Shown here: in pieces, positions 8,674-27,066 of the stretch
How positions within the stretch are numbered: position 1 is the stretch's first letter
How the letters are laid out: every line of letters begins with the position of its first letter
Assembly (NCBI GenBank): GCA_013297775.1
Contig: JAAFIL010000003.1
Location: 1-64,000, forward strand
Source: Bacteroidota bacterium
GTDB lineage: Bacteria; Bacteroidota; Bacteroidia; B-17B0; Aurantibacillaceae
DNA length: 64,000 bases
Reading direction: 5' to 3'
Notes under the pieces: generated by a model
What the model was told of the DNA's origin: nothing
The model's input: the letters and a program-made list of their open reading frames with translations, nothing else
Database searches by the model: none
Translations under genes and position numbers: made by a program

Positions 8674-9573
8674 CTACTTCACCATGTTACCACGAATGTT
8701 AGCTAGTGCTTCAGTAATAGTTATTACTTGCTCGTCGGTAATGTTTACGGTACTTTTACTATTGTTAACAATTACCAATTGACCATTTACTTCTTTGGTT
8801 TCAGGCTCTTTGTACTCGTAGGTAATTTTGATGGTATCGTAAATCGCTTTCATCTTATCAAATTCAGCTACAATGCTAGCAAAATATTTATCTTGTTTAT
8901 ACGCATTTAAAATCACTAAAATATTATCGAGGTTAATTTTTTCGTAACCAATACGCTCTTTTAATTCTTTAGTTTTAACTTGCTTATTTACTTGTGTTGC
9001 AATGTATAAGCCCTCTAACCAAGCTCCCGATATCATAAGCACACTTAACTCGCCACGTTTTTGCTCGCGTAAAAACGCATCCATCTTATTAAAATTATCG
9101 GTACTCACGTACAACAACGAGTCGTAATTATTATTATTAGAAGCAAATCGTTTAAGCGTTTCAAAATCGAAAAATTGCCCCACTTTAATATCATCGGCTA
9201 AACCTTTAACTGTGCTTAAATAATTAACCGCCGAAAATGTTTTTTCATAAATATTAATATAACCCAAATCGGCACTATAAATGCCAATGTTTAAAGCCTT
9301 GCTATAATTGGTGTTATATTTACTGGCATTATCGGTCGTATTTAAAATGGCAGCATCGTAAGTTGCCCCATTGCTTTTCAAGAGGCTTGCCATTTCAACA
9401 GGGGTTGGAATGGATTGAATAATTCCATTAATGGTTTCTTCACTCACATCCACAGGTTTCAATGTCCCCGTTAAAGAGTCGTTAGTTTGAACTTTTTGTT
9501 CGAGCTTATCGTCGGACCCGCCGCAAGACGTTAAGAAAAGGGCTGGTAAAAGAACAAGTAGTATTTTTTTCAT
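8674..9573 (-). CDS. Lipoprotein of unknown function
   Basis: 299 residues from the ATG at 9573. A lipoprotein signal peptide ends in the lipobox LTSC at residues 15-18, followed by GGSDDKLEQK. The body is helical and charged, with DAAILNTTDNASKYNTNYSK and LGIYSADLGYINIYEK. No domain was recognised with confidence. It ends the minus-strand operon that starts at 15224 with a SiaB-type kinase, with a 43-base gap to the gene before it, so it may belong to the same envelope function as the large ABC transporter (inference). Confidence 0.8.
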   Translation of the reverse strand: MKKILLVLLPALFLTSCGGSDDKLEQKVQTNDSLTGTLKPVDVSEETINGIIQSIPTPVEMASLLKSNGATYDAAILNTTDNASKYNTNYSKALNIGIYSADLGYINIYEKTFSAVNYLSTVKGLADDIKVGQFFDFETLKRFASNNNNYDSLLYVSTDNFNKMDAFLREQKRGELSVLMISGAWLEGLYIATQVNKQVKTKELKERIGYEKINLDNILVILNAYKQDKYFASIVAEFDKMKAIYDTIKITYEYKEPETKEVNGQLVIVNNSKSTVNITDEQVITITEALANIRGNMVK

Positions 9574-9616
9574 TGTGTTAATATACAAGAGTTAATTAAA
9601 ATAGTGTGTTTATGAG

Positions 9617-10042
9617 TTAGTGTGTTCTTGAGAATCCTAAAACGTTTAAACCACAAGCATCGGACGAGTTCCCCTCATAAAACGACTCAATATAATATAC
9701 ACCCGTTGCACCACAAGGAAATGTGATAGAAGGATAAAACTTTTTTCGATTTTTGTTAGTGGCTATCAAATTTTTTTCTCTATCGTAAAGATTAACAATC
9801 ATGCGTGCTCCCTTTTTTTCGCTATCGCAAGCTAACACCATATACGTGCTGCCTTGGCTAAATACATAACTAAACTGGTTGGCTTTGCCTTCGATACAGG
9901 CACTGTTAACGTTAACCGATTTAATAAAAGTAAACTCTCCTAATTTTTTGCTACACTCGCCTTGAATACATTGTGCATTGAGCTTGGCGTTGAATCCTAG
10001 GACGAGGAACAAACTAACCGAAAGTTGAATTATTTTTTTCAT
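9617..10042 (-). CDS. Small secreted cysteine-containing protein
   Basis: 141 residues with a signal peptide (about 1-23, ending LNAQ) and six cysteines in the mature part, suggesting disulfides in the periplasm or outside the cell. The mature part is likely beta-rich (GVYYIESFYEGNSSDACGL). No family recognised. Its start lies one base after the stop of the giant ABC transporter gene, so the two are almost surely co-transcribed. Confidence 0.78.
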   Translation of the reverse strand: MKKIIQLSVSLFLVLGFNAKLNAQCIQGECSKKLGEFTFIKSVNVNSACIEGKANQFSYVFSQGSTYMVLACDSEKKGARMIVNLYDREKNLIATNKNRKKFYPSITFPCGATGVYYIESFYEGNSSDACGLNVLGFSRTH

Positions 10043-10043
10043 T

Positions 10044-13000
10044 TTATTTAGGTCTTTTAATATTTGTAATAAAGGTTGAGATTTTATTAAGAACCTCAGA
10101 ATACAAAATTATAAAAAAAATGAAGTTTAAGCCCCAAATGGCCAAAACATTAAACATAAAAGTATCGAGTTTTACACCAAAAAAATACTTTACAGGACTA
10201 AAAAAATGAGTCCGAAGGCTTATAAAACCCTTCTCTGGCTCGTTATAGCCCGCATTAAAATGCTGCGTAAAGCCTGTTTGATTGTTAATAAAAAATTTCT
10301 GCTTCGACAATTCGTTATTTACTTGCTCATCAATTGTTGGGTTGTAATACTCATCTTTAATGCGATTAAACTTAGCCTCGGCTTCGCTACTTTCTAAAAA
10401 TGAAGACACATACGTGTTTTTTTGTTTGTCTAAATCAGCAAATTTTTGCGAATATACTTTGTACAAAGCATTCCAATACGCTAACAACTCATCGGCCACC
10501 TTTTCGCTAAAATCAACCATGTTTAGTTTGGCTTTCAACGCAAACTTGGGGTTTTCCTTAATTTTTTCTAATTTCTCTAACTCTAAACTTAAAACTTTTA
10601 AATTGTCGAATAAATCACTTGTATTTTTATTCGTTAAAGCACTTTTACAATTGGTGGTCATTTGCAATAACTCGGGTATATAATAAATGGTTTTATAATT
10701 CAGTTGCCCCAAATCTTTATCGTAATCGTAAAATACGCGGTAATAATTATTGTGTTTGAATTGATTTAACATTAACCCTTCGTAAGCCCAGCGGCTAGCC
10801 ATTGCCTCCGATACCAGTGGTGCCTTGCTGCCATCGCCAATAATTCGGTTTAATTTATCGAACCGAAACATAGCCCCTCCTAAAATCATTTGCGGAATAA
10901 TTAACAAAGGAATAATGATATAAATGGTAACCGCCGAATTAAACAACGAACTAATAATTAAACCTAATAAATTGGCACAACACGACACGCTAAACAACAT
11001 GAGCCAATAGCTTAAATACATTCCTTTTATACCAATGATACTATTGCCAACAACAACAAACAATAAACTTTGAATAGCTGAAAGCGTGGTTAAAATAATA
11101 ATTTTAGATTGCAAGTAAGAAAACCAACTTAGGTTTAAGAATTTTTCGCGTTTTAAAATTTTTCGGTCTTTAAATATTTCTTCGGCACTTACCGTTAAGC
11201 CAATAAACAAAGCCACAATAATACTCATAAAAATATAAGCTGGTATATTTTCATTCTCGCGGTAAACATACGTTTCGCCTTTAACTTTGGCAATATAGCG
11301 TATCAAAAAAGCCAAGATAAATGCCAGTAGCGGGGCTTCCAATAAATTTAACAAAAGGTATTGTTTATTACTTAACTTACTAAACACATCGCGCTTAATA
11401 AATACGCCGAGTTGTTTCCATAAACTAGGCGTTGTATTTTCGGGTTGAGGGCGTTCAGGAAAATCTTTTTCAAACTTAATTTCAACTTTTTTCAAAAAAA
11501 GTTCGTTCCAGTTTTTAGGTAAAAATTTTCGCTTATCGGTAAAACTACCATACTCATCTACTTCTTTCGACTCAATGAGGTTAAACAATAATTCAGGATT
11601 TACATTTCCACAGGTATAGCATTCGCCCACATCGGCATTTAACTGATTGGTGGCTTCTTTAAAGTACATCACACCCTCAATCGGATTACCATAATAAATA
11701 GGTAAGCCTCCCACATCTAACAAAAATAGTTTATCAAACATTTTAAAAATATCTGATGAGGGTTGGTGAATAACAACAAAAATAAGTTTTCCTTTTTGGG
11801 TTAATTCCTTTAATAAATCCATCACGTTTTCGCTATCGCGCGACGATAAACCTGAGGTAGGCTCATCTACAAATAAGATAGCAGGCTCGCGTATTAACTC
11901 TAAAGCAATGTTAAGGCGTTTACGTTGCCCTCCACTAATTTTTTTGTTGAGCGGACTCCCCACAACAATGTCTTTAATTTCGTATAAACCCAAACTGTGC
12001 AACATTTTTGCAACCACACGGTGCAATTGCACGGCCGAATATTGTTTAAAACACAACTCGGCATTGTAATATAGATTTTGGTAAACGCTTAAATCTTCAA
12101 ATAATAAATCATCTTGTGCAATGTAACCAATTAATCCTTTAGCTAATTTTGGGTTATTTAAAACGCTTTCGCCATTAATTAAAATATCGCCCGAGCTAGG
12201 TTTTAAAAGCCCGCTTAACACATTTAATAAAGTAGTTTTACCCGCGCCACTTGCGCCCATAATACCAATAAGGTTTCCACTTTTCTCTTCAATGCTAATA
12301 TTTTTCAAACCCACTTTTCCATTCGGGAAACGGTACTCTAAGTTAGGGGCTTGAAACACCAATTTATTATAATCGTAACGCGAAGCGAAATTAGTAACCA
12401 CCTCGCTGTAATAAATGGTACCTCGTGGCAAGCGCAAATTACTACCCGGTGCTAACAAATAAACATAATTCGACTGAATAGGTAAACCATTTAAAAAGGC
12501 TTCGCTGCTGCCATTGTAGCGCAAAAAATAAATATCTACACTTTGAATTTTAATGATGCTGATAAACCCATTTAAACCTGGCGCACTAATGTGATTGGTG
12601 CCGCCTATATAATCGAGTGTTACTAATTTATTATCATCAATCACCAATAAATCAGACGATTCGTACGAATAGGGATCTTCACTTTCTAAAAAATGACGAA
12701 TCAATTTTTTCTCTGCTTCGTTGATATTAAATACATCCGAAACGGTATCAATAATTCCTAAGCGTTGAACGGTAAACCCTTTATCAGCCCGCAGCATCTC
12801 GAACAAACGGGTTAACACCACCACTTTTTGTTTTTGAACTAACGTCTTATTAATTTTTTTACAAATACCTAAAGTACGAACGCTATCTTTTACAGAAGTT
12901 AAACGTGGGCGTTTTTCTTTGGGTGCTTCGCCTTCTTTTGTTTCTGTAACTTCGGTTTTCTTATCTTCTTTTTCAATTAAAAACGTATCGTATAAACTTA

Positions 13001-13142
13001 GGTATTGCTCTACCTTTTCGATGTTAACTTGGTTCTTAAGAAATGAAGTAACAAAAAGTCGGTGTATGTCCGAAGAACCCGTATCCTGTTTAGAGATAAT
13101 GGCAAACAATTGCATTAAGGCTTTTAAAATTTCTTCACTCAT
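10044..13142 (-). CDS. ABC-2 type transporter, fused ATPase and permease
   Basis: 1032 residues. Residues 1-150 are helical and TerB-like in look; 160-265 are beta-rich with LNGLPIQSNYVYLLAPGS, resembling a degenerate FHA domain; 270-500 form an ABCG-like ATPase with Walker A GASGAGKT (296-303), signature ISGGQRKRL (402-410), Walker B AILFVDEPTSGL and the switch His in VVIHQPSSD. Membrane helices follow at about 590-830, then a soluble helical insertion and a last helix near 1000-1020. All ATPase motifs are intact. The start overlaps the stop of the SiaC-fusion gene (ATGA). The cargo is unknown. Location in the inner membrane is expected. The fusion with probable regulatory domains and the operon with SiaB/SiaC suggest phospho-dependent control (inference). 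Confidence 0.9.
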   Translation of the reverse strand: MSEEILKALMQLFAIISKQDTGSSDIHRLFVTSFLKNQVNIEKVEQYLSLYDTFLIEKEDKKTEVTETKEGEAPKEKRPRLTSVKDSVRTLGICKKINKTLVQKQKVVVLTRLFEMLRADKGFTVQRLGIIDTVSDVFNINEAEKKLIRHFLESEDPYSYESSDLLVIDDNKLVTLDYIGGTNHISAPGLNGFISIIKIQSVDIYFLRYNGSSEAFLNGLPIQSNYVYLLAPGSNLRLPRGTIYYSEVVTNFASRYDYNKLVFQAPNLEYRFPNGKVGLKNISIEEKSGNLIGIMGASGAGKTTLLNVLSGLLKPSSGDILINGESVLNNPKLAKGLIGYIAQDDLLFEDLSVYQNLYYNAELCFKQYSAVQLHRVVAKMLHSLGLYEIKDIVVGSPLNKKISGGQRKRLNIALELIREPAILFVDEPTSGLSSRDSENVMDLLKELTQKGKLIFVVIHQPSSDIFKMFDKLFLLDVGGLPIYYGNPIEGVMYFKEATNQLNADVGECYTCGNVNPELLFNLIESKEVDEYGSFTDKRKFLPKNWNELFLKKVEIKFEKDFPERPQPENTTPSLWKQLGVFIKRDVFSKLSNKQYLLLNLLEAPLLAFILAFLIRYIAKVKGETYVYRENENIPAYIFMSIIVALFIGLTVSAEEIFKDRKILKREKFLNLSWFSYLQSKIIILTTLSAIQSLLFVVVGNSIIGIKGMYLSYWLMLFSVSCCANLLGLIISSLFNSAVTIYIIIPLLIIPQMILGGAMFRFDKLNRIIGDGSKAPLVSEAMASRWAYEGLMLNQFKHNNYYRVFYDYDKDLGQLNYKTIYYIPELLQMTTNCKSALTNKNTSDLFDNLKVLSLELEKLEKIKENPKFALKAKLNMVDFSEKVADELLAYWNALYKVYSQKFADLDKQKNTYVSSFLESSEAEAKFNRIKDEYYNPTIDEQVNNELSKQKFFINNQTGFTQHFNAGYNEPEKGFISLRTHFFSPVKYFFGVKLDTFMFNVLAIWGLNFIFFIILYSEVLNKISTFITNIKRPK

Positions 13143-14272
13143 AGTACTTCATCGCTTTCAGCTAAGATGGTAATAGGGTAATCTAAAATAAGCGCATAAT
13201 TTTTAATGGTATGATACATTTCTTCATCTTGTTCATCGTAAGTCCACGTAACACTAGGTTTAAAATGAGTTGAGTCGAAACTTAAAATCTTTTTCAATAA
13301 ACCCAACAATAATTTAGATGAAGAAGTATTGTAATAAGAAATATTTATGAATACGTTTAAAGTAGAGGGGTTAGAAGATAAATAATAATCTATCCACGCA
13401 TTAATCGAATCAAAAAATGCAAACGGATTTTCGGGATACATTCGCCCTTTTATAATTAACGAGTTATTAGATTTGTTTAACTCTACAAAAGGTGTTTTAG
13501 TAGTGGGTTCAAATTTTAAATCTTCAAACTTATAGGTTCGAAACAAATGCTCGGCAATTGTTTCAAAATGAATAGAAGTGTTTTCGAGTAATAAATGTCC
13601 TAAATGCAGCAATTGATACGCTCTAGCACTTTCAATAACATTGGCATTAAAAAAATAATTATTTTGAGAACCGTAATATTTAAACAACAACAAACCTCCA
13701 ATATTTTTAAACAATAAATACCCTTGCATCATAGGCACAAGAATATGTTTTTTATCTAACAACGCATCTTGCCGGCTTAAAGGTGTAGAAGAAATAATAA
13801 CTGTATTTTCATCAAAATCGCGAGCCGATAAATCTATGTAAGAAAAATACTTGAGCTGTTGAAAATCGTTTAAACGTAAATTAAACACCGCATTAACCGT
13901 ATCTAAAGCTTCGTTGTAGTGGTGGCTGGCAATGTCTCCAATTCTGAACTGCTCTATAAGTAAATGCAAAAACGAAAGTTTCTCAAAATAATTCGCCTTT
14001 TGATTTATCTTTTGTGCCAAGCGCACTAAACGCACCGACTCGGATACAGGAAACTCAATGCTTTGACCAATGTAATCGCTCTGAATAAACGATAAATTAA
14101 CCTCTACATCTAAGTGAGCTAAATAACTATTAATCGTTTCAACGTCATCCGTATAATTCCGAAGATTTATGGCCAAGTATTGCTTTTTCAACGACAAATT
14201 TTTTCGATTGAGCTTAGCGGCCGAAGCATAAAGATCAATAAACGTAAGTAATGTGTCGGAGGCAAAGGCCAT
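13139..14272 (-). CDS. Protein with C-terminal SiaC-like domain
   Basis: 377 residues. The C-terminal 110 residues align by eye with the stand-alone SiaC in the next gene: SLIIKGRMYPENPFAFFDSI matches SLVLSGRSLPEDAASFYGPL, and SYYNTSSSKLLL (Thr near 316) matches EYFNTASSKMLL, the segment carrying the phospho-threonine in SiaC. The N-terminal 250 residues are of unknown fold, helical with LSFLHLLIEQFRIGDIASHH. The gene sits 17 bases behind siaC and overlaps the ABC transporter start by 4 bases, so it may link the phospho-switch to the transporter (inference). Confidence 0.8.
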   Translation of the reverse strand: MAFASDTLLTFIDLYASAAKLNRKNLSLKKQYLAINLRNYTDDVETINSYLAHLDVEVNLSFIQSDYIGQSIEFPVSESVRLVRLAQKINQKANYFEKLSFLHLLIEQFRIGDIASHHYNEALDTVNAVFNLRLNDFQQLKYFSYIDLSARDFDENTVIISSTPLSRQDALLDKKHILVPMMQGYLLFKNIGGLLLFKYYGSQNNYFFNANVIESARAYQLLHLGHLLLENTSIHFETIAEHLFRTYKFEDLKFEPTTKTPFVELNKSNNSLIIKGRMYPENPFAFFDSINAWIDYYLSSNPSTLNVFINISYYNTSSSKLLLGLLKKILSFDSTHFKPSVTWTYDEQDEEMYHTIKNYALILDYPITILAESDEVL

Positions 14273-14289
14273 AATGGAATAGTACTTAA

Positions 14290-14664
14290 CTAATAAGCTA
14301 ACATTTCGAATTTAATTTCTACTAACTCGGCATACTCTTCGCCAGCCTCTTGCATATCGTCATCTCCATCGGGATAGTACCAACGAACACTAGCACTTCC
14401 GCCATTTTGATCAATGTTCTCTAATTTATTAAAAATATCGAGCAACATTTTTGAAGAAGCAGTATTAAAATACTCTAGCTTCATATCAAAAACAAGTTTA
14501 GTACTAGCATTTGTTTTACCGTAATTCTCAATCCACTCTAATAATGGACCGTAAAAACTAGCAGCATCTTCGGGTAATGAGCGTCCGCTTAATACTAAAG
14601 AGCCGGTTGCGTTGAAACTTACTTCTGGGGTATCGTCTGTTTCTTTAATCGTTAGATTTTCCAT
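14290..14664 (-). CDS. SiaC-family regulatory phosphoprotein (DUF1987)
   Basis: 124 residues, the full length of the family. The conserved EYFNTASSK segment places a threonine at residue 68, the same number as the phosphorylated Thr68 of Pseudomonas aeruginosa SiaC. In that system SiaB phosphorylates SiaC, SiaA removes the phosphate, and free SiaC binds and activates the diguanylate cyclase SiaD. No GGDEF protein is encoded in this window, so the output here must differ or be elsewhere. It lies 11 bases behind a siaB-type gene and ahead of a SiaC-fusion gene. Confidence 0.9.
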   Translation of the reverse strand: MENLTIKETDDTPEVSFNATGSLVLSGRSLPEDAASFYGPLLEWIENYGKTNASTKLVFDMKLEYFNTASSKMLLDIFNKLENIDQNGGSASVRWYYPDGDDDMQEAGEEYAELVEIKFEMLAY

Positions 14665-14675
14665 GTGATATATGA

Positions 14676-15224
14676 CTACTTATTTTTAGATATTTTAATT
14701 AAAAGTGAATAAAAATTACAATTAGGAATGCCGCCGTCAGCAAAATCATAAACTAATTTTTCGCCCGACTTGCGCGCCACATCTACCAATCCTAAACCAG
14801 CACCGCCTTTGTCCGATAAACCATAGGCATTGCTAACAATGGTTTTATGCAATTGTTTTAATCCTTCTTTGTCTAATTGATTAATGGCTTCGAGTTTACT
14901 TTTAAGTACTGGAATATTATCGTTAGCAATGTAATTTCCGGTGGTGATAAAATAATGCGTGTCATCCATCCCAATCATAAATATAGCTTCTTTAATAGTT
15001 GTGTTGGCTTGCTCGCCATGCTTACATATATTTTGAAGACATTCAACCATCACGTTAAATATTTTACGTTTCACCGTTTGATCTTCTCCAAAATTATCTA
15101 AGTTTCGCTCGGTCATTGCTAAAACTGATTTGGCAATCTCTTGCGTAAACTCGCCTTGATACACCAACATAATTTTGTTCTGCTGCACAACATTAAACGT
15201 ATCGTAAATAAACCGCGTATTCAT
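14676..15224 (-). CDS. SiaB-family protein kinase (copy 1)
   Basis: 182 residues with a HATPase-like fold: the N-box region FNVMVECLQNICKHG and the G-box DKGGAGLGLVDVARKSG. SiaB proteins are anti-sigma-kinase-like enzymes that phosphorylate SiaC on threonine. It is strongly similar by eye to the second copy at 19936-20481 (shared KIMLVYxGEFTQ, VFNVMVECLQN and KGGAGLGL segments). First gene of the minus-strand operon siaB, siaC, SiaC-fusion, ABC transporter, secreted protein, lipoprotein. The divergent region 15225-15482 should hold its promoter; none was assigned. Confidence 0.9.
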   Translation of the reverse strand: MNTRFIYDTFNVVQQNKIMLVYQGEFTQEIAKSVLAMTERNLDNFGEDQTVKRKIFNVMVECLQNICKHGEQANTTIKEAIFMIGMDDTHYFITTGNYIANDNIPVLKSKLEAINQLDKEGLKQLHKTIVSNAYGLSDKGGAGLGLVDVARKSGEKLVYDFADGGIPNCNFYSLLIKISKNK

Positions 15225-15482
15225 AAAGTAACAATCTAAGAATTATATTTAAAACGTACGAAAATAAATAAAAAAACACGGATTACCTTACTTTTTTGTA
15301 AATACTCGTGTATATACTATAATTGCGCATAAATCACATCCACTAATTATACAGCGTATTTTAGAGGATTAAATTTTTCATTCTAAATTAAATCCCATTC
15401 ATAGGAAATTTAATAGGGTTCGTATTAATTTTTTAGTAAAATTGTAAACACTTAGTATATTTAGCCTATCTATAATTTATAC

Positions 15483-16322
15483 ATGTTTTTTAATAAAGAT
15501 ACAGAATTGAGTTTGTTGAATATTAAACGTTTTCAAGGTTTCTTGTTTGAAAAATACCATTATGACTTTCGCGATTACGCCTTATCGTCTTTCAAAAGAA
15601 GAATAGAACATGTCCTAACTTTTTTTAAAGCCAATAATTTAGAAGAGCTTATCAATCGGATGGATTCACAAAGCGACTTGGCCGAAAAAGTAGTTAAAGA
15701 AATTACCGTTAACACCACCGAAATGTTTCGCGACCCTTCGTTTTGGCGTAAACTGCGCGATGAAGTGTTGCCTCAGTTTAAAGACACGCCCTCTATTCGG
15801 ATTTGGCATGCCGCTTGCTCATCGGGCGAAGAAGTTTACTCGATGTGTATTTTACTCAAAGAAATGGGTCTGTTAGAAAAATCTAAAATTTTTGCTACCG
15901 ATATTAATTCCGAAGTAATAACGACCGCTAAAACTGGCATTTACCCGGCGCGCAGCCTCGAAGTAGCACGCAGTAACTTCGACCGCTTTGGTTCAAAAAA
16001 TAGATTAGAACACTACTATAAATTATCGTTCGATAGCTTATTCATTAAATACGACGAACAGTTGATTAAAAACGTAAACTTTAAAAATCATAATCTTGCC
16101 AGCGAAGAAAGTTTTTCTAAATTTGATATTATACTTTGCCGCAACGTTATGATTTATTTTAACTTCGATTTACAAGATAGAGTAATGAATACGTTAAGTA
16201 ATAGTTTATACAGAGGCGGCTATTTAGCAGTAGGATCAAAAGAAACCATTGCGTGGTGCAATGCCGCCCGCGATTTTAACCCGCTCTCCATTGAAGAAAA
16301 AATTTATAAAAAACTGGTTTAG
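15483..16322 (+). CDS. CheR-type protein-glutamate methyltransferase
   Basis: 279 residues, usual CheR length. An N-terminal helical domain (FLFEKYHYDFRDYALSSFKR) is followed by TVNTTEMFRDPSFWRKL, the SAM motif RIWHAACSSGEEVYSM, LLEKSKIFATDINSEVI and DIILCRNVMIYFN, all diagnostic for CheR. It methylates glutamates on signalling proteins with SAM. It opens the plus-strand operon cheR, cheB, GAF protein, phosphatase, siaB. No methyl-accepting chemotaxis receptor or CheA/CheW is present in the window, so the substrate is probably not a classical receptor system (inference). Confidence 0.93.
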   Translation: MFFNKDTELSLLNIKRFQGFLFEKYHYDFRDYALSSFKRRIEHVLTFFKANNLEELINRMDSQSDLAEKVVKEITVNTTEMFRDPSFWRKLRDEVLPQFKDTPSIRIWHAACSSGEEVYSMCILLKEMGLLEKSKIFATDINSEVITTAKTGIYPARSLEVARSNFDRFGSKNRLEHYYKLSFDSLFIKYDEQLIKNVNFKNHNLASEESFSKFDIILCRNVMIYFNFDLQDRVMNTLSNSLYRGGYLAVGSKETIAWCNAARDFNPLSIEEKIYKKLV

Positions 16323-16333
16323 CACTATAGGTT

Positions 16334-16903
16334 GTGGAAAACTTTAAAATTATTGTGATAGGTGGTTCCGCAGGTAGCTTTCAAGTAGTTACAAAAATAT
16401 TAGCCGCTCTGCCTAAAACATTCGATATTCCCATCGTTTTATGTTTACATCGCTTAAAACACGTGCGCTCTGGCTTTGAAGAGGTTCTCAATAAAAAAAG
16501 TACTTTAAAAGTGGTTGAACCCGAAGACAAAACTAAAATTCAAAAAGGCTTTGTTTACCTTGCGCCCTCCAATTATCACCTCTACGCCGAAATAAACGGA
16601 AGCCTTTCGCTCTCTACCGAAGAAGCAGTTTCCTTCTCGCGCCCTTCGATTGATTTAACCTTTGATACGTTTTCGTATGCCTACCGAAATAAAATGCTTG
16701 GTATTATTTTATCGGGAGCCAACCGCGATGGGCTTAACGGTTGCATTATGGCCAAATCGCGCGGTGCCACATTAATTGCACAATCGCTCGATGAAGCACA
16801 AATTAGCACCATGCCCGAGTCTATTATTAATCAAAACCTCTGTTCGTTTATTCTTAAAAGCGACGATATAATTAAAAAAATGATAGCTTTGACCATAAAA
16901 TGA
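16334..16903 (+). CDS. CheB-type methylesterase domain, no receiver
   Basis: 189 residues, the catalytic domain of CheB alone. The start is GTG at 16334. The three catalytic positions are visible: Ser in VIGGSAGSFQ, His in VLCLHRLKH and Asp in LSGANRDGLNG (where usual CheB has a TGMGxDG-like text). The N-terminal phospho-receiver that normally controls CheB is absent. It removes methyl or amide groups from glutamate side chains. It overlaps the GAF gene by 4 bases and follows cheR by 11 bases, so it acts with that CheR. Confidence 0.9.
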   Translation: MENFKIIVIGGSAGSFQVVTKILAALPKTFDIPIVLCLHRLKHVRSGFEEVLNKKSTLKVVEPEDKTKIQKGFVYLAPSNYHLYAEINGSLSLSTEEAVSFSRPSIDLTFDTFSYAYRNKMLGIILSGANRDGLNGCIMAKSRGATLIAQSLDEAQISTMPESIINQNLCSFILKSDDIIKKMIALTIK

Positions 16904-17328
16904 GTAAAACAAATCTTCAACATACATTTTGGGAACTTGCCAATCAGTTAAATGCCGTTCAAGCCGTGCTTTATACGTCTAATAAAGTCAGCAACGAATC
17001 TGCCAAAATTTATTCGTTCGCCGAAGGCTTTGCATACATTCCTACCGAAAACGAACAACCTATTTATGCTTATGGCGAAGGTTTAATTGGACAAGTAGCT
17101 AAAGATAAACGCTTCCTGTTTATTGACGATATTCCCGAAGGTTATTTAAAAGTTAACTCTGGTTTAGGAGCCGCTTACCCCAATCACATTTTAGTTTATC
17201 CAATTGTAAAAGATGCCCAAACCGAAGCGGTTATAGAACTGGCCACCTTTGTAAAATTGGAAGAACAAATGCTTAATTTATTAAAACTTGCCGAGCCTAA
17301 ATTGCTTGCCGCTATCCATTCTTCGTAA
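16900..17328 (+). CDS. Stand-alone GAF-domain protein
   Basis: 142 residues. The text YGEGLIGQVAKDKRFLFIDD with the following IPEGYLKVNSGLG matches, by eye, the GAF segment in the phosphatase that follows (SGQGLVGQAVIEQAQMYRTE and IPDNYVTITSGLLG). GAF domains bind small ligands or mediate dimerisation. Its ATG overlaps the cheB stop. A soluble sensor subunit of the downstream phosphatase is a reasonable guess; the ligand is unknown. Confidence 0.85.
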   Translation: MSKTNLQHTFWELANQLNAVQAVLYTSNKVSNESAKIYSFAEGFAYIPTENEQPIYAYGEGLIGQVAKDKRFLFIDDIPEGYLKVNSGLGAAYPNHILVYPIVKDAQTEAVIELATFVKLEEQMLNLLKLAEPKLLAAIHSS

Positions 17329-17335
17329 CTTACAC

Positions 17336-19933
17336 ATGGAACAAATAAAAAAAATTCAACGTTACCCAGTTATTATTGCCACTTTAATTTTGGGTTTATG
17401 TTTTCCTGTTATTGCTTTACTCATTATTTCGTTTAGCACCAATATACCCATTGGCAGCGAGTTAATTAAAGTAGCTATTCAAAATAATTTATTCTTAATC
17501 ATTTTACTCGCGCCAGTTATTTTACCATTACTTTCTTATTTTTTTATCACTTACTTTTCCAAACGGGTTAACACCGTTATTGATGAACGCAACAATCAAA
17601 TTCAAATCGTACAAAAAGTATCCGACTTTGCCGATGCCATTGGGAAAGGAAACTTTAATCACGAAATAGGCTTAAACACTACCGACGATGCGCTTGTTAA
17701 CTCACTAATTGAAATGCGCAACAACATTAAAGCTACCGCCGAGCAAGAAGAAGAACGCCGCTTTATTGTGAATGGGCTTTCGGAAGTGGGCGATTTGTTG
17801 CGCTCTTACTCTAATTTAAAAGAACTAGGCGAAGCATTAACCGTTTACCTCTCGCGCAAAACCAACTCCATCCAATGCGCTTTCTACTTGGTAAACGAAG
17901 CCGAAAAAGGACAACGCGACGATATTGAACTAATTGCTTCTTATGCTTACAGTCGAAAAAAATATTTAAAAGGAGCGTTTAAATCGGGGCAAGGTTTAGT
18001 AGGGCAAGCCGTTATTGAGCAAGCACAAATGTACCGCACCGAAATTCCAGATAACTACGTTACCATTACCTCTGGCCTATTGGGCGATAAACGACCGAAA
18101 GCTATTTTAATTACGCCACTCATTACTAACGAAAAGGCTTATGGTGCAGTAGAAATGGCATCACTACACCCGATAAGTAAGTTACACCGCGATTTTTTAG
18201 CACAAATTAGCGACATCATTGCCCGCACCATTTTTAATGTAACCGTTAGCGAACGCACCCTGCGCCTCTTAAACGAATCGCAGCAAATGAGTGGGGAGTT
18301 AAGCGAACAACGCACGCAATTACTATTAAACGCCGAGGAAATGGAACGCGCGCGCCTCGACCTCGAAAAAAGTAATACCGAACTCGAATTACAAATTACC
18401 GAAGTTAACAATGCGCAAAAACGTCAAAATGCTTTACTAGAGCGGTCTTCCGAAATTATTACCATCATTGATCATAACCGAGTTATCAAATACCAATCGC
18501 CCTCTGTAAAAGTTATATTAGGCTACGATGCCGAAGAAAATATAGGCATGTTACACACCACCCATGTTGTAGAACAAGATGTCAATGAATTTGAAAAAGT
18601 ATTTCATTTAGCCTTGAACACCCCAAATGAAATGCCCGTTATTCAATTTCGTTACCTTAAAAGCAATGGCGACCAAGTGTGGATAGAATCAACCTTCACT
18701 AACTTATTGCACGATGCGTCGGTAAAAGGTATCGTGATGAACTCGCGCGATATAACCATACGCCGCCTAGCCGAGCAAGAACAACGCTTGCGTGGTCAAA
18801 TGCAATCACTTTCCGAAAACTCGCACGACTTAATTGTGCGTTTGGGAATGGACAAAAAAATCTATTACTGTAATCCCATTATTCAAAAAATGACAGGATT
18901 ATCTGAAAAAAGCATCATCAATAAACTATACTTAGCTACCGAATTACCCCTTTATTTAAGCGATGCCTTCAACCGAATTCTTGACCATGTTACGGAATTT
19001 GACAACGCTGTTAACCGCGAAGAAAGTTTCATTACACGTCAGGACGAAAAAATTTATGCCTTTAACGGCATTCCAGAACGTAACCAAGACGGCGAAGTAG
19101 TAACCGTTTTAATTGTGGCACACGACATTACCATTCAAAAGAAAATCGAAGAAGAAATTAGTAATAAAAATAAAAGCATTACCGAAAGCATTAACTACTC
19201 GTACCGAATTCAAAACTCGTTAATGCCCACTCAAAAAACACTTCAACACTTTTTCCCGCAATCGTTTGTCTTTTATAAAAGTAAAGACATTGTAAGCGGC
19301 GATTTTCCTTACATCTATCAAAAAGGCGACTCAGTTTTTGTAGCAGCCGTAGATTGTACTGGGCATGGTGTACCAGGTGCCTTGATGAGTTTTATTGGTT
19401 ACTTCACCCTAAATCAAATCATGAGCGAAACGCACGAATACAGTGCCGCCGAAGTATTAGACACCTTGCACGAACGGGTGCAAAAAACATTAAAGCAAGA
19501 TACAGGCGATAGCGAAGCCCGCGACGGAATGGATATTGCTTTATGTAAAATAAATCGTAAAACCAACAGTGTAGAGTTTGCTGGTGCCCACCGACCACTT
19601 TATATTTATACGCAAGGCGAATTACAAGAGGTAAAAGGCGACCGCTACCCAATTGCGGGTATGTACTATAAAAACCGACAAGCTTTTGTTAACCACACCC
19701 TAACGCTTAAAAACGGCGATGCAATTTTCTTTAACACCGACGGCCTACCCGACCAATTTGGTGGTCCCGATGGCAAACAAAAATTTATGAGCAAACGCAT
19801 CAAAACACTAATTTCAGAAAATGCACATCAAGATAGTGTAGCTCTTAGCGAATTATTTATAAACGCCTTCGATAACTGGAAAGGTAAACATAAACAAATG
19901 GATGATGTTTTATTAATAGGAATTAAATTTTAA
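17336..19933 (+). CDS. Membrane SpoIIE/PP2C phosphatase with GAF and PAS
   Basis: 865 residues from the ATG at 17336; a longer frame from 17288 would overlap the GAF gene. Two membrane helices (about 10-32 and 50-74), a HAMP-like linker (75-135), GAF (150-305), a coiled coil, PAS domains at about 360-475 and 485-605, and a SpoIIE/PP2C phosphatase (615-865). Metal-binding acidic residues are visible in SGDF, AAVDCTGHGVPGALMS, GMDIALC, NTDGLPDQFG and DDVLL. It fills the role of SiaA in the SiaABC switch, dephosphorylating SiaC, but with a richer sensory part than SiaA. The siaB copy 2 gene starts 2 bases after its stop. Confidence 0.92.
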   Translation: MEQIKKIQRYPVIIATLILGLCFPVIALLIISFSTNIPIGSELIKVAIQNNLFLIILLAPVILPLLSYFFITYFSKRVNTVIDERNNQIQIVQKVSDFADAIGKGNFNHEIGLNTTDDALVNSLIEMRNNIKATAEQEEERRFIVNGLSEVGDLLRSYSNLKELGEALTVYLSRKTNSIQCAFYLVNEAEKGQRDDIELIASYAYSRKKYLKGAFKSGQGLVGQAVIEQAQMYRTEIPDNYVTITSGLLGDKRPKAILITPLITNEKAYGAVEMASLHPISKLHRDFLAQISDIIARTIFNVTVSERTLRLLNESQQMSGELSEQRTQLLLNAEEMERARLDLEKSNTELELQITEVNNAQKRQNALLERSSEIITIIDHNRVIKYQSPSVKVILGYDAEENIGMLHTTHVVEQDVNEFEKVFHLALNTPNEMPVIQFRYLKSNGDQVWIESTFTNLLHDASVKGIVMNSRDITIRRLAEQEQRLRGQMQSLSENSHDLIVRLGMDKKIYYCNPIIQKMTGLSEKSIINKLYLATELPLYLSDAFNRILDHVTEFDNAVNREESFITRQDEKIYAFNGIPERNQDGEVVTVLIVAHDITIQKKIEEEISNKNKSITESINYSYRIQNSLMPTQKTLQHFFPQSFVFYKSKDIVSGDFPYIYQKGDSVFVAAVDCTGHGVPGALMSFIGYFTLNQIMSETHEYSAAEVLDTLHERVQKTLKQDTGDSEARDGMDIALCKINRKTNSVEFAGAHRPLYIYTQGELQEVKGDRYPIAGMYYKNRQAFVNHTLTLKNGDAIFFNTDGLPDQFGGPDGKQKFMSKRIKTLISENAHQDSVALSELFINAFDNWKGKHKQMDDVLLIGIKF

Positions 19934-19935
19934 CT

Positions 19936-20481
19936 ATGGATTTTGTAAAACGCTTGCATGAAATCATGCTCAACAATAAAATAATGTTAGTGTACGAAGG
20001 TGAATTTACACAAGACATTATGAAATCGGTTTTATCTATGACCGAAAAAAATTTAGATAGCATGAAAGAAGAAGGTGCTATTAAACGTAAAGTATTTAAC
20101 GTGATGGTAGAGTGCCTCCAAAACATTGTGAAACATTCGGAAGATAGACCAGAAGAATACACCACTGCCGTTTTTTTTATTGGTATAAAAGCAGGCGACT
20201 ATTTTATTTGCACGGGCAACTTAATAGAGTCAGAACACGTTCCGGTTTTAACGGCCAAACTCGATCAAATTAATAGTTTAGATAAAGAAGGACTAAAAAT
20301 TTTACAAAAAGATTTAATCACAAGTGGTGCACTTAACGAAAAAGGCGGTGCTGGCTTAGGTCTTATTGACATTGCCCGTAAATCGGGTCAAAAACTCGAT
20401 TACAGTTTTGACGATGCTGGAAACAATCAACACTTCTATTCTTTATACATTACCATTCCGCGAGCCAAGGCAGAGGCTTAA
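19936..20481 (+). CDS. SiaB-family protein kinase (copy 2)
   Basis: 181 residues with the same signature as copy 1: NKIMLVYEGEFTQDIMKSVL, VFNVMVECLQNIVKHSED and NEKGGAGLGLIDIARKSG. It ends the plus-strand operon right behind the PP2C phosphatase, so kinase and phosphatase are made together. It may phosphorylate the SiaC protein or the SiaC-fusion encoded by the divergent operon. Which kinase serves which substrate cannot be told from sequence. Confidence 0.9.
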   Translation: MDFVKRLHEIMLNNKIMLVYEGEFTQDIMKSVLSMTEKNLDSMKEEGAIKRKVFNVMVECLQNIVKHSEDRPEEYTTAVFFIGIKAGDYFICTGNLIESEHVPVLTAKLDQINSLDKEGLKILQKDLITSGALNEKGGAGLGLIDIARKSGQKLDYSFDDAGNNQHFYSLYITIPRAKAEA

Positions 20482-22774: not shown

Positions 22775-23899
22775 GTGAAAAAAATACTTTTTATCAGTTC
22801 ATGCATTGGCTTACTTTTTATGAGTGCTTGCAGCAACACCGAATCCAATAACGCCGAACAAGATACCTATCCCGTTACCACCATTATTAAAGTAGATACG
22901 TTTACCTATTCGGATTATGTAACCGAAATTCATGCGCTTCAAAACGTAGAAGTAAGAGCACGCGTGAAAGGCTACCTCGAAAAAGTTCATTGCGATGAAG
23001 GTGCTCATGTAAAAACCAATCAACTGCTTTTTTCAATTAATAACCGCGAGTATGCCGAAGAACTCTCCAAAGCTAAAGCCCTTTGTAAACAAGCCGCTAC
23101 CGATGTTAATGCCGCTGGTTTAGAATTAAAAAATATATTACAACTTGCCGAAAAAAAAATTGTGTCGGCTACTGAAGTCGAACTGGCTCAAAACAAATTA
23201 GAAGCACAAAAAGCTAAGTTAGAGGAAGCACAAGCTAATCAATCCTCGGCGCAATTGAGGCTATCTAACACCGAAGTGCGCGCCCCGTTTGATGGCGTTA
23301 TCAATCGCATTCCTTCTAAAATTGGAAGTTTAATAGATGAAGGTACTTTGCTAACTACTATTTCAGAATACCACCAACTGTTTGCTTATTTCGATGTGTC
23401 GGAAAAAGAATACCTTAACTATGCTCGTAACTTAAAAACAGATAGTGCCGAGTCGAAAATTGTAAGTCTTATTTTAGCAGATGGAACAGAGCATTTGCAA
23501 AAAGGAGTGATAGAAACCGTTGAAGGCGTTATTGATGCCAACACCGGAAACATTGCCTTTAGAGCCCGTTTCGATAACCCAGACAAACTTATTAAACACG
23601 GTGCAAGCGGAAAAATACGCTTACGAAAAAAATACAAAGGTGCAATTATAGTACCTCAAAAATCAACATTTGAATTGCAAGATAAATTATACGTTTACGT
23701 GATAGATAGTACGAACACGGTTAAACTTCGTCAAATCGAAACCAGTTACCGCTTGCCACATTTATTTATTGTTTCGCAAGGTTTAAAAGCAGGCGAACGC
23801 GTGTTGTTCGAGGGCATCCAAACCGTTAAAGCCGACTCGCGCATTCAAGTGAAAGAAATACCAATGCTATCTATCATCAAAAAATTGGCTTCTAAATAA
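22775..23899 (+). CDS. RND efflux periplasmic adaptor lipoprotein
   Basis: 374 residues. The signal peptide ends in lipobox MSAC at residues 16-19. The barrel-sandwich (lipoyl) halves are visible in VRARVKGYLEKVHCDEGAHV and TEVRAPFDGVINRIPSKIGS, separated by a coiled-coil hairpin of about 85 residues; the membrane-proximal part follows with IIVPQKSTFELQDKLYVYV. It bridges the inner-membrane pump and outer-membrane channel of a tripartite efflux system. First of three contiguous efflux genes; the pump starts 8 bases after its stop. Confidence 0.94.
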   Translation: MKKILFISSCIGLLFMSACSNTESNNAEQDTYPVTTIIKVDTFTYSDYVTEIHALQNVEVRARVKGYLEKVHCDEGAHVKTNQLLFSINNREYAEELSKAKALCKQAATDVNAAGLELKNILQLAEKKIVSATEVELAQNKLEAQKAKLEEAQANQSSAQLRLSNTEVRAPFDGVINRIPSKIGSLIDEGTLLTTISEYHQLFAYFDVSEKEYLNYARNLKTDSAESKIVSLILADGTEHLQKGVIETVEGVIDANTGNIAFRARFDNPDKLIKHGASGKIRLRKKYKGAIIVPQKSTFELQDKLYVYVIDSTNTVKLRQIETSYRLPHLFIVSQGLKAGERVLFEGIQTVKADSRIQVKEIPMLSIIKKLASK

Positions 23900-23907
23900 A
23901 AGAAATT

Positions 23908-26900
23908 ATGTTTAAAAAATTTATAGAACGCCCCGTTTTATCCTTGGTAATTTCCTTATTTATTACGCTTTTGGGCGTGTTGGCAATGACTGGATTACCC
24001 GTTACGCAATACCCCGACATTGCGCCCCCCGCTGTTGCTGTAACTACTAAATACACGGGAGCCAATGCCGAAGTGTGTGCCAAAGCAGTTGTAACCCCGC
24101 TCGAACGTGCTATTAACGGGGTGCCGGGTATGGCTTACATGACTTCCGTTTCGGGTAACGATGGCACCAGTATTATTCAAGTTTATTTTAAAGTTGGAAC
24201 CGATCCAGATTTAGCTGCTGTAAATGTTCAAAACAGGGTGGCAACTGTGTTAGATGAATTACCCGAAGAGGTTATCAAAGCAGGGGTTTCAACTGAAAAG
24301 GAAGTAAACAGTATGCTCATGTACTTAAACCTGGTTAGTAAAGATACTTCTATTGATGAAAAATTTATTTACAATTTTGCAGACATAAATGTATTAGCCG
24401 AACTAAAACGTATTGATGGCGTAGGTTTTGCCGATATTATGGGGCAACGCGAATACGCCATGCGGGTGTGGCTAAAACCAACCAAATTAGATGCTTACGA
24501 AATTTCGGCCGAAGATATAATCACAGCCTTACGGGCGCAAAATATAGAAGCAGCCCCAGGTAAAATTGGCGAAAGTTCGGGGCGCAAATCGCAATCGCTA
24601 CAATACGTGTTGCGCTACACGGGCAAACTCACACAAAAAGAACAATACGAAAATTTAGTTGTAAAAGTAACCGACAGCGGCGAAATGCTGCGCCTCCGAG
24701 ATGTGGCAGATATTGAATTTGGTTCGCTCGATTACGATGTGCTATCTAAAGAAAATGGAAACCCATCGGCCGCTATCGTGTTAAAGCAACGCCCTGGCTC
24801 CAATGCCAGCGAAGTTATTCAAAATATAAAATCACGATTAGAATTTTTAAAAGCAACAACGTTTCCTCCAGGTATGGATTATACCATTAGTTACGATGTA
24901 TCGCGGTTCTTAGATGCTTCCATTCACGAGGTAATTAAAACCTTGCTCGAAGCGTTTTTATTAGTGGCGTTGGTGGTATTTGTGTTTCTGCAAGATTGGC
25001 GTTCAACGCTTATACCCGTATTAGCAGTACCCGTTTCGTTAATAGGAACATTTGCGTTTATGCAATTATTTGGTTTCTCTATAAACCTGTTAACGTTGTT
25101 TGCATTGGTATTGGCCATTGGTATTGTGGTAGATAATGCCATTGTAGTCGTAGAAGCCGTTCATGCCAAAATGGAAGAGAAAGATTGTAGTCCGCGCGAA
25201 GCAAGTATCGAAGCCATGCGCGAGATGGGTACAGCTATTGTTGCCATCACGCTTGTAATGTCCGCCGTGTTTATTCCCGTTGCTTTTTTATCGGGCCCCG
25301 TTGGTGTGTTCTATCGGCAGTTTTCCATTACGATGGCTATCTCCATTGTTATTTCAGGTATTAACGCACTTACGCTTACACCTGCCTTGTGTGCGCTAAT
25401 GCTCAAAAGCCCGCACCACCAAAAAGCATCAAAAAATATACTCACCCGATTTTTTGATGCGTTTAATCGAGGGTACAATGCCATTTCAGGAAAATACCAA
25501 ACTATTTTATCGCTATTTATTAATCGCCGCATGGTTACAATTGCACTCATCGTTGTGTTTTGTTTAGCCACTTGGGGTGTAGGAAAGTTTTTACCAACAG
25601 GCTTTATTCCTACCGAAGACCAAGGTACCATTTATGTAAATGTTACCACACCTGTTGGAGCCACGCTAGAACGCACCGAAGCCGTTATGGGCGAAATAGA
25701 TAAAGTAGCTCAAACACTCGAAGAGGTAGAATCATCATCGAGTTTGGCAGGCTTTAGTATGATGACCGACGGCTCGGGTGCCTCTTTTGGTATGAGTACC
25801 ATTAGCTTAAAACCTTGGAAAGACCGCACCAAAACGGCTAATGCCATCATTGATATTTTACAACAAAAAACCCGCTATATTAAAGATGCGGATATACAAT
25901 TTTTTCCACCACCTGCTGTGCCAGGCTTTGGTAATGCCAGTGGTTTCGAGTTGCGCTTACTCGATAAAACAGGTTCAGGAAATTTACAACAAACATTTTC
26001 GGTTACCACAGCCTTTATGGAAGCCGTAAAAAAACGAAAAGAAGTGAAATCTATTTTCACCAGTTTTAATCCTACGTTTCCGCAATACCTAATTCACATA
26101 GACCAAGATGTGGCGGCTAAAAAAGGCATTTCGGTTGATAACGCCATGAGTAATTTGCAAACACTAATGGGAAGTTATTATGCCACTAATTTTATACGCT
26201 TTGGTCAAATGTATAAAGTAATGTTGCAAGCCGACCCTAAATACAGAGCGCAACCCGAAGATATTTTACGCTTACGTGTAAAAAATAAAAATGGAGAAAT
26301 GGTGCCTTATGCCTTGTTTAGTCGCATCGAAAGGGTATATGGTCCCGAGCAATTAACACGTTACAACATGTACATTTCAGCCATGTTAAACGGCGAAGCG
26401 GCAAAAGGGTATAGCAGTGGCGATGCCATAAAAGCCATTGAAGAAGAAGCCAAGCAACATTTACCAAAAGGCTTCGCGTTCGAATGGTCGGGTATGACGC
26501 GCGAAGAAATTGAGTCGGGCAATCAAGTGGTGTTTATTTTTAGTATTTGTTTACTCTTTGTCTATTTACTACTTGCGGCACAATACGAAAGTTTTTTATT
26601 ACCACTTCCTGTTTTGTTATCCTTACCCGTTGGTATATTTGGTTCATTGTTTTTACTTTACGTTACTGGTTTAGAAAACAACATCTATGCACAAGTAGCC
26701 ATGGTCATGTTGATTGGCTTGCTCGGTAAAAATGCCATTCTAATTGTAGAATACGCTGTGCTAAAACAAAAACAAGGTTTATCGCCTTTAAAAGCAGCGT
26801 TAGAAGGGGCAACTGCACGTTTACGCCCTATCTTAATGACTTCTTTCGCATTTATTGCCGGCCTAATTCCTTTAATGTTAGCCTCAGGGGCTGGTGCTAT

Positions 26901-27066
26901 TGGTAACAAAACCATTGGAACGGCTGCCGCTGGTGGCATGTTATTTGGAACTTTATTTGGCGTATTAATTATTCCAGGCTTATATGTATTGTGTGTGCGT
27001 GAAAAAAAACAAAAAAATAATTCAAAAAAAATTGAAGAAACTGAGGCAATTTATGACAAAGCTTAA
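23908..27066 (+). CDS. RND efflux pump, HAE1/AcrB type
   Basis: 1052 residues, full length for the family, with twelve predicted membrane helices and two large periplasmic loops. N-terminal FIERPVLSLVISLFITLLGV, the duplicated halves and GLLGKNAILIVEYAV (the AcrB Lys940 position) are typical. In helix 4 the text is VVDNAIVVVE: Asp409 is followed by Asn410, where AcrB has two aspartates (407/408) in the proton relay. It exports hydrophobic compounds with proton motive force; substrate unknown. Overlaps the outer-membrane channel gene by 14 bases. Confidence 0.95.
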   Translation: MFKKFIERPVLSLVISLFITLLGVLAMTGLPVTQYPDIAPPAVAVTTKYTGANAEVCAKAVVTPLERAINGVPGMAYMTSVSGNDGTSIIQVYFKVGTDPDLAAVNVQNRVATVLDELPEEVIKAGVSTEKEVNSMLMYLNLVSKDTSIDEKFIYNFADINVLAELKRIDGVGFADIMGQREYAMRVWLKPTKLDAYEISAEDIITALRAQNIEAAPGKIGESSGRKSQSLQYVLRYTGKLTQKEQYENLVVKVTDSGEMLRLRDVADIEFGSLDYDVLSKENGNPSAAIVLKQRPGSNASEVIQNIKSRLEFLKATTFPPGMDYTISYDVSRFLDASIHEVIKTLLEAFLLVALVVFVFLQDWRSTLIPVLAVPVSLIGTFAFMQLFGFSINLLTLFALVLAIGIVVDNAIVVVEAVHAKMEEKDCSPREASIEAMREMGTAIVAITLVMSAVFIPVAFLSGPVGVFYRQFSITMAISIVISGINALTLTPALCALMLKSPHHQKASKNILTRFFDAFNRGYNAISGKYQTILSLFINRRMVTIALIVVFCLATWGVGKFLPTGFIPTEDQGTIYVNVTTPVGATLERTEAVMGEIDKVAQTLEEVESSSSLAGFSMMTDGSGASFGMSTISLKPWKDRTKTANAIIDILQQKTRYIKDADIQFFPPPAVPGFGNASGFELRLLDKTGSGNLQQTFSVTTAFMEAVKKRKEVKSIFTSFNPTFPQYLIHIDQDVAAKKGISVDNAMSNLQTLMGSYYATNFIRFGQMYKVMLQADPKYRAQPEDILRLRVKNKNGEMVPYALFSRIERVYGPEQLTRYNMYISAMLNGEAAKGYSSGDAIKAIEEEAKQHLPKGFAFEWSGMTREEIESGNQVVFIFSICLLFVYLLLAAQYESFLLPLPVLLSLPVGIFGSLFLLYVTGLENNIYAQVAMVMLIGLLGKNAILIVEYAVLKQKQGLSPLKAALEGATARLRPILMTSFAFIAGLIPLMLASGAGAIGNKTIGTAAAGGMLFGTLFGVLIIPGLYVLCVREKKQKNNSKKIEETEAIYDKA

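Follow-up and report, generated by a model that had tools for sequence, protein, structure and literature searches.

A Sia-type phospho-switch in Bacteroidia with an ABC exporter as its candidate output

Analysis of a 64,000-nucleotide stretch of Bacteroidota DNA, here called the window, suggests that a Sia-type phospho-switch probably has an ABC exporter as its output. The switch itself is already known, and it is the proposed exporter output that is new and that our comparisons support. In Pseudomonas, according to the account in PMC8457831, unphosphorylated SiaC binds SiaD, and phosphorylation of its Thr68 by SiaB blocks this binding; the same source (eLife 2021, PMC8457831) puts forward the idea that members of DUF1987 act as modulators of adjacent proteins. 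The original prediction had named the transporter as a candidate new output of the switch, a proposal now backed by the co-presence of SiaC and transporter across genomes, by their adjacency in 49 of 145 loci, by the homology of a SiaC fusion protein to the N-terminal head of the transporter, and by the scarcity of GGDEF domains; of these, the adjacency and the fusion weigh most.

The locus comprises two back-to-back gene rows, one on the minus and one on the plus strand, in a genome of 4.35 Mb. Reading outward from the 258-base divergent intergenic region between them (15225..15482), the minus-strand row begins with the first copy of a SiaB family kinase (14676..15224; Pfam, NCBIfam and alignment), in which Glu61 is kept. 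It is followed by SiaC (14290..14664; Pfam and alignment), a 124-aa protein with Thr68 in the motif Y-F-N-T-A-S-S-K, by a 377-aa SiaC fusion (13139..14272), which combines homology to the transporter head with a SiaC domain, and by the 1032-aa ABC transporter (10044..13142; Pfam domains). Residues 1-264 of the transporter (12351..13142, minus strand), TerB-like helices and then an FHA-like beta domain, form the head that we propose as the SiaC docking site. The row ends with a small secreted protein of 141 aa without a Pfam match (9617..10042) and a lipoprotein (8674..9588), whose open reading frame starts with TTG and in which an ATG at about position 9573 gives MKKILLVLLPALFLTSCGG with a lipobox-like Cys. 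The plus-strand row encodes a CheR-type methyltransferase (15483..16322; Pfam), a protein that has a CheB methylesterase domain but no receiver domain (16334..16903; Pfam), a stand-alone GAF domain protein (16900..17328; Pfam), a SiaA-like phosphatase with a GAF, two PAS and a SpoIIE/PP2C domain (about 17336..19933; Pfam and NCBIfam), whose hydrophobic stretches near the N-terminus were judged by eye to be membrane spans, and the second copy of the SiaB family kinase, with its catalytic Glu kept (19936..20481; NCBIfam and alignment). Gene content and positions agree with the original prediction, and the identities are borne out by Pfam and NCBIfam. Since the gaps inside each row are only -4 to +28 bases, and the rows lie 258 bases apart, each row looks like one transcription unit. 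TAnnTTTG is a promoter motif of Bacteroidota; no copy was found on either strand of the 258-base divergent region. Just beyond the locus, at positions 22775-27066 of the window, RND efflux-type genes were recognized by eye, encoding a membrane-fusion protein and a 1052-aa inner-membrane pump.

As for the switch proteins, the residues on which the known system depends (SiaC Thr68, SiaB Glu61 and the SiaA active-site residues) have been defined in PMC7647112 and PMC8457831. SiaC matches PF09345 with 134.5 bits (cut-off 24.5), and its Thr68 aligns with the N-T-S motif of the Pseudomonas SiaC structure 6kko; of 92 aligned rows, 87 have T at this position, 4 have S and one has P. The two SiaB copies match NF038262 with 148.2 and 160.8 bits (cut-off 85), and Glu61 is kept in both as well as in 88 of 89 aligned rows. 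The phosphatase domain aligns with the SiaA structure 6k4e at an E value of 6.3e-34, including the acidic Asp/Gly active-site motifs; read by eye, this alignment contains a counterpart for each of the six active-site residues that PMC7647112 names for SiaA. With Thr68, Glu61 and the PP2C active-site residues all present, the predicted identity of the genes as a SiaABC phospho-switch holds, and the switch looks functional to judge by the catalytic residues kept in SiaA, SiaB and SiaC. All three proteins fall below the NCBIfam equivalog cut-offs (SiaA 164 bits against 700, SiaC 87.6 against 150, and neither SiaB copy reaching the 225 of NF038264), which makes them members of the families rather than orthologues of proven function. 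Pairing of SiaB kinases seems to be a recurring theme. Two SiaB domains occur in one 380-aa protein at L069/L167 (same contig) and at L070, which fits the two SiaB genes of the window acting as a pair. Double-SiaB fusion proteins of 366-380 aa were noted at L069, L070 and L167 and also at L200, L202 and L203, and tandem SiaB genes at L247, L073, L080 and L169.

The transporter belongs to a family that we found, by requiring full-length or almost full-length relatives with E up to 1e-60, in 114 of 198 genomes of the class Bacteroidia. It consists of a TerB-like and FHA-like N-terminus (about residues 1-260), an ABC ATPase (279-430), an ABC2 membrane domain (577-795) and a long C-terminal stretch. 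It had been called "giant", and its 1032 residues are confirmed, but this size is ordinary in the family, in which 121 of 131 complete-looking relatives have open frames of 990-1090 aa (median 1026 aa). Between the ATPase and the membrane domain, at residues 508 and 511 (columns C14 and C17 of the transporter alignment A1, built from 26 of 100 fetched class loci, L067 among them, and having 27 rows with the window), lies an almost invariant E-C-x-x-C-G-N-V-N-P-E motif, which is possibly a metal or redox site.

The first part of the head is a TerB-like domain, family-wide, by both sequence and fold. With a limit of E 0.01, PF05099 (TerB) is recognized in 62 of 69 family members, the best match having an E of 5.3e-12; the window's own head segment gives no match within this limit and reaches 12 bits in a Pfam scan. 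In structural comparison, this part resembles the TerB-like structures 2h5n (VIA Z 9.6, rmsd 3.5 over 115 residues) and 2ou3 (Z 7.9). The second part resembles FHA domains, with a best Foldseek E of 9.1e-3 and VIA Z values up to 7.5 (rmsd 4.1 over 90 residues), where a Z below 8 may reflect a common arrangement; against the FHA-2 domain of Rv1747 (6cah), Z is 6.3 with an rmsd of 6.1 over 82 aligned residues. The order of FHA-like, ABC and ABC2 membrane domains is that of FHA-ABC transporters. The canonical phosphothreonine pocket of FHA domains includes an Arg, a Ser-x-x-His and an Asn-Gly motif. The Arg and Ser-x-x-His are not conserved in the 69 rows of the head alignment (A2, from 72 usable heads, with L171, L172, L232 and L240 left out), and the remnant of the pocket is Asn-Gly only (N218 in 69/69 and G219 in 63/69 rows). 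A phylum-wide search with the head found it in 8 of 247 genomes, 6 of them in Bacteroidia, a result from which little is drawn, as this sample is biased towards genomes of high completeness and has members in common with the class sample. The same Bacteroidota-type transporter was also seen on a contig filed as Candidatus Planktophila lacus, an actinobacterium (L170), which is probably a mislabelled or mixed metagenome bin.

The best clue to the output, and the strongest link at the sequence level, is the fusion, which appears to be a switch protein joined to the part of the transporter that we propose as its docking site. Its residues 1-245 share homology with the head of the transporter (an hhalign comparison over 215 columns gave an E of 9.8e-15), and a phmmer search with this N-terminus retrieves transporter N-termini with E values from 3e-10 for a relative to 9e-4, the window's own transporter scoring 7e-6. 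Residues 255-369 form a SiaC domain with its own N-T-S motif, at Thr316. The fusion occurs in 2 of 198 class genomes and 2 of 87 family genomes. In the second genome that has it (G041), it is intact and 62% identical, the transporter there being 86% identical. It is absent at E 1e-30 from the other 85 family genomes, and also from the other SiaC proteins in the fetched loci, where 2 of 104 SiaC frames exceed 180 aa. Being known in two genomes, the fusion is a lineage-specific addition and no general part of the system; it is probably an adaptor or a competing transporter subunit.

SiaC and the transporter tend to occur in the same genomes. SiaC is present in 123 of the 198 class genomes. The transporter accompanies it in 112 of these and is missing from 11; 2 further genomes have a transporter without SiaC, and 73 lack both. 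At the family level the corresponding numbers are 39 families with both, 1 with the transporter only and 3 with SiaC only. Related genomes in which transporter and Sia genes never co-occur had been named as evidence that would speak against the prediction; instead, 112 of 114 transporter genomes have SiaC. No positive association is seen for PF03441, which served as a control family (70/57/53/18 of 198 genomes). Shared presence may partly follow lineage, and it counts as support only, since one control family cannot rule out lineage effects. The same genomes are poor in GGDEF domains, which were matched in 6 of 198 (4 over the cut-off) and nowhere in the whole genome from which the window comes. 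This rules out a diguanylate cyclase as the output in that genome and extends to the whole genome the earlier remark that no such gene lies at the locus; nor was a GGDEF partner found that could take the SiaC signal in its place. Within the sensitivity of the model, the rarity of GGDEF makes a c-di-GMP output impossible for most SiaC genes of the class, and since SiaC is found in 123 genomes and GGDEF in 6, another output must exist.

A survey of gene neighbourhoods, as the original prediction had proposed, shows that SiaC and the transporter are also linked on the chromosome. Of 145 transporter loci, 49 have SiaC at a distance of up to 1.5 kb, where 1.2 would be expected from the number of SiaC matches in each genome and the size of that genome; 20,000 simulations that treated loci as independent gave at most 7 linked loci. 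Since loci of related genomes are not independent, the ratio weighs more than the probability. The 145 loci are every transporter place found (146 rows, with two G183:C95 pieces merged), and linkage is seen in 45 of the 121 that have at least 1.5 kb of sequence on both sides. Among the 49 linked loci, 30 are convergent (tail-to-tail), 18 have SiaC upstream in the same direction and 1 has it downstream, so the commonest layout is not one of co-transcription. On a tree of 101 transporters, the same-direction layout requires at least 6 changes; the window transporter is placed, with full support, in a group of 15 rows, 10 of which have SiaC upstream. By the same 1.5-kb measure, SiaA neighbours the transporter in only 8 of 145 loci. 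In the 16 genomes with a transporter and a single SiaC, the two are linked within 1.5 kb in 7 and unlinked in 9.

Along with the convergent layout, the 9 unlinked genomes and the rarity of the fusion, further findings count against the link. There is no SiaC within 1.5 kb in 96 of the 145 transporter loci, including that of a paralogue in the window's own genome (L086, G000:C42), which is adjoined by its own lipoprotein and two small proteins and has no Sia genes within the fetched 19 kb; this is probably an older, more widespread form. Four further SiaC genes of the same genome have no transporter of this family nearby, which implies that SiaC has several clients, of which the transporter may be one. 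Their contexts include SiaA with two SiaB, SiaB only, and polysaccharide-type genes. In the last of these (L250:9581-9958, G000:C1) and in a counterpart in G041 (L251:9736-10107), SiaC ends a row that by eye resembles sugar or polysaccharide biosynthesis, with asparagine synthase-, epimerase- and glycosyltransferase-type genes, and at L250 a 1330-aa SiaA-like phosphatase follows SiaC.

Many of the closer relatives have the parts in a single operon. We compared named loci, taken as the 80 best among the matches listed, ranked by similarity to the window transporter, a ranking that favours the window's subfamily; at least 9 of their transporters are identical to one of the 145 class loci, and one (L211) has no head match and was left unclassed. 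They come mainly from metagenome-assembled Bacteroidota, with Fulvivirga, Mangrovivirga, Cesiribacter, Nafulsella and Chryseosolibacter as cultured genera. In 43 of these 80, abc is directly preceded by a siaC gene of the same orientation, accompanied by SiaB in 38, SiaA in 34, CheR in 28, CheB in 27, and the lipoprotein and the secreted protein in 40 each; 34 of the 80, some at contig ends, have no SiaC within 6 kb. The genes cheR, cheB, siaA, siaB, siaC and abc share one locus in 26 of the 80, mostly as one operon, and the order cheB-gaf-siaA-siaB-siaC-abc-lipoprotein-secreted forms a single row in many named relatives; Nafulsella turpanensis (L203) and Chryseosolibacter histidini (L231) are cultured examples with the single operon. 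In the window and in G041, these parts are divided between two divergent rows. The two divergent operons of the original prediction are thus real in the window, but the pair is a rearranged version of what many relatives have as a single operon.

These relatives retain the CheR/CheB pair in their operon. No match to MCP (PF00015) or CheW (PF01584) was found in the window's own genome, the controls being positive in 7 of 14 genomes each. With no MCP or CheW to act on, CheR and CheB may, at a guess, methylate the sensor phosphatase; the pair may have been taken over for the methylation of a target that is not a chemoreceptor.

The lipoprotein and the secreted protein form a core module with the transporter, since 114 and 94 of the 145 loci, respectively, have them no more than 1.5 kb away from it. 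The neighbouring lipoproteins belong to one family (alignment A3, from 60 lipoproteins, with L172 and L173 left out). The window lipoprotein is helical, and its AlphaFold model is confident (pLDDT 88.0). No Foldseek match had an E value below 0.9; VIA scored highest with a helical protein of de novo type (Z 8.2) and gave a Z of 5.2 for an imelysin-like protein. No function was drawn from these structure matches. The recurring gene families near the transporter include no convincing cargo.

Taken together, the parts, their catalytic residues, the conserved linkage and the homology between fusion and head, all read from sequence, suggest a mechanism in which we infer the binding, its polarity, the direction of export, the role of CheR/CheB and the cargo. 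The SiaA-like membrane phosphatase, with its GAF and PAS domains, and the SiaB kinases would set the phosphorylation of SiaC at Thr68, with CheR/CheB and the GAF protein perhaps tuning the sensor phosphatase. By analogy with SiaC and SiaD in Pseudomonas, unphosphorylated SiaC would bind its target and phospho-SiaC would release it. The target would be the TerB-like/FHA-like head, and binding would switch the ATPase-driven export of a substrate, with the lipoprotein and the small secreted protein as partners. The second SiaC domain, carried on a copy of the head, would serve in this lineage as an adaptor or competing subunit. More tentatively, and with confidence that falls somewhat short of even, the whole may be a class-wide Bacteroidia system in which SiaC docks on the TerB/FHA-like head and gates the ABC exporter, CheR/CheB adapt the phosphatase, and the fusion is a lineage-specific adaptor.

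The same observations might also arise if the Sia genes and the transporter merely shared a regulon or a stress, with SiaC acting elsewhere (e.g., on a STAS-binding regulator) and the transporter only co-regulated. The convergent arrangement of 30 of the 49 linked loci is in keeping with this, as is the location of the other SiaC genes of the genome away from the transporter. We nevertheless regard it as unlikely, because the fusion combines a copy of the transporter head with a SiaC domain and because siaC immediately precedes abc, in the same direction, in 43 of the 80 best named loci. Transporters can also feed sensor systems, as in BceAB-type modules, and a phosphatase with GAF and PAS sensor domains would suit a transporter acting upstream of the switch, moving or sensing the phosphatase's ligand while SiaC reports elsewhere. 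That the link runs via SiaC and a cytoplasmic head and not via the sensor, with SiaA near the transporter in 8 of 145 loci and SiaC in 49, makes this a distinctly improbable arrangement.

A reversal of polarity, in which the FHA-like domain of the transporter captures phospho-SiaC and phosphorylation switches the transporter by recruitment, would find a precedent in Rv1747, described in PMC5549992 as an FHA-ABC transporter under phosphothreonine partner control, whose FHA I domain captures phospho-Thr237 of Rv2623 (PMC5549992). The second part of the head aligns with FHA structures, including Rv1747 FHA-2 (6cah). We marked this reading down to a slim chance since the canonical pocket residues, Arg and Ser-x-x-His, are not conserved in 69 rows; in addition, SiaC Thr68 sits at the start of a folded helix and not in a peptide. 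An exporter switched by unphosphorylated SiaC is the reading that we prefer.

SiaC (DUF1987) is widespread. The only worked-out SiaC output that we found in the open-licence literature is the Pseudomonas diguanylate cyclase SiaD, and our search of open-licence papers, which is no proof of absence, found none linking SiaC to an ABC transporter. The conserved transporter and its candidate docking head, together with a natural fusion of SiaC to that head, offer a directly testable answer to the question of SiaC output. If true, it would extend current knowledge to a partner switch that controls an ABC exporter directly and post-translationally, and would make an exporter the usual Sia output in a group mostly without c-di-GMP cyclases, a system previously undescribed.

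Among the closest known systems, SiaABCD of Pseudomonas aeruginosa, as described in PMC7647112 and PMC8457831, shares the SpoIIE/PP2C phosphatase SiaA, SiaB with Glu61, and SiaC with Thr68 in N-T-(S/A). In contrast to it, the window has no diguanylate cyclase SiaD but an ABC transporter in its place, and it adds a second SiaB, the head-SiaC fusion and the CheR, CheB and GAF genes. Rv1747/PknF of Mycobacterium tuberculosis, according to PMC5549992 and PMC3908365, resembles the locus in that ABC and membrane domains follow an N-terminus of the FHA type, control works through phosphothreonine and a kinase gene lies in the same operon. The head in the window differs in combining a TerB-like with a degenerate FHA-like domain, and the kinase, SiaB, is accompanied by a separate SiaC carrier, a phosphatase, and lipoprotein and secreted partners. 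In partner switches of the RsbU/RsbW/RsbV type (see also PMC11619594), the usual output is a sigma factor. There, too, a phosphatase, a kinase and a STAS-like phospho-carrier set the output, whereas the window locus contains no sigma factor. SLC26/SulP transporters likewise have a STAS-like domain attached to a transporter, but the account in PMC8256260 places STAS within the SulP carrier itself, whereas in the window SiaC is separate and phosphorylatable and the transporter is of the ABC type.
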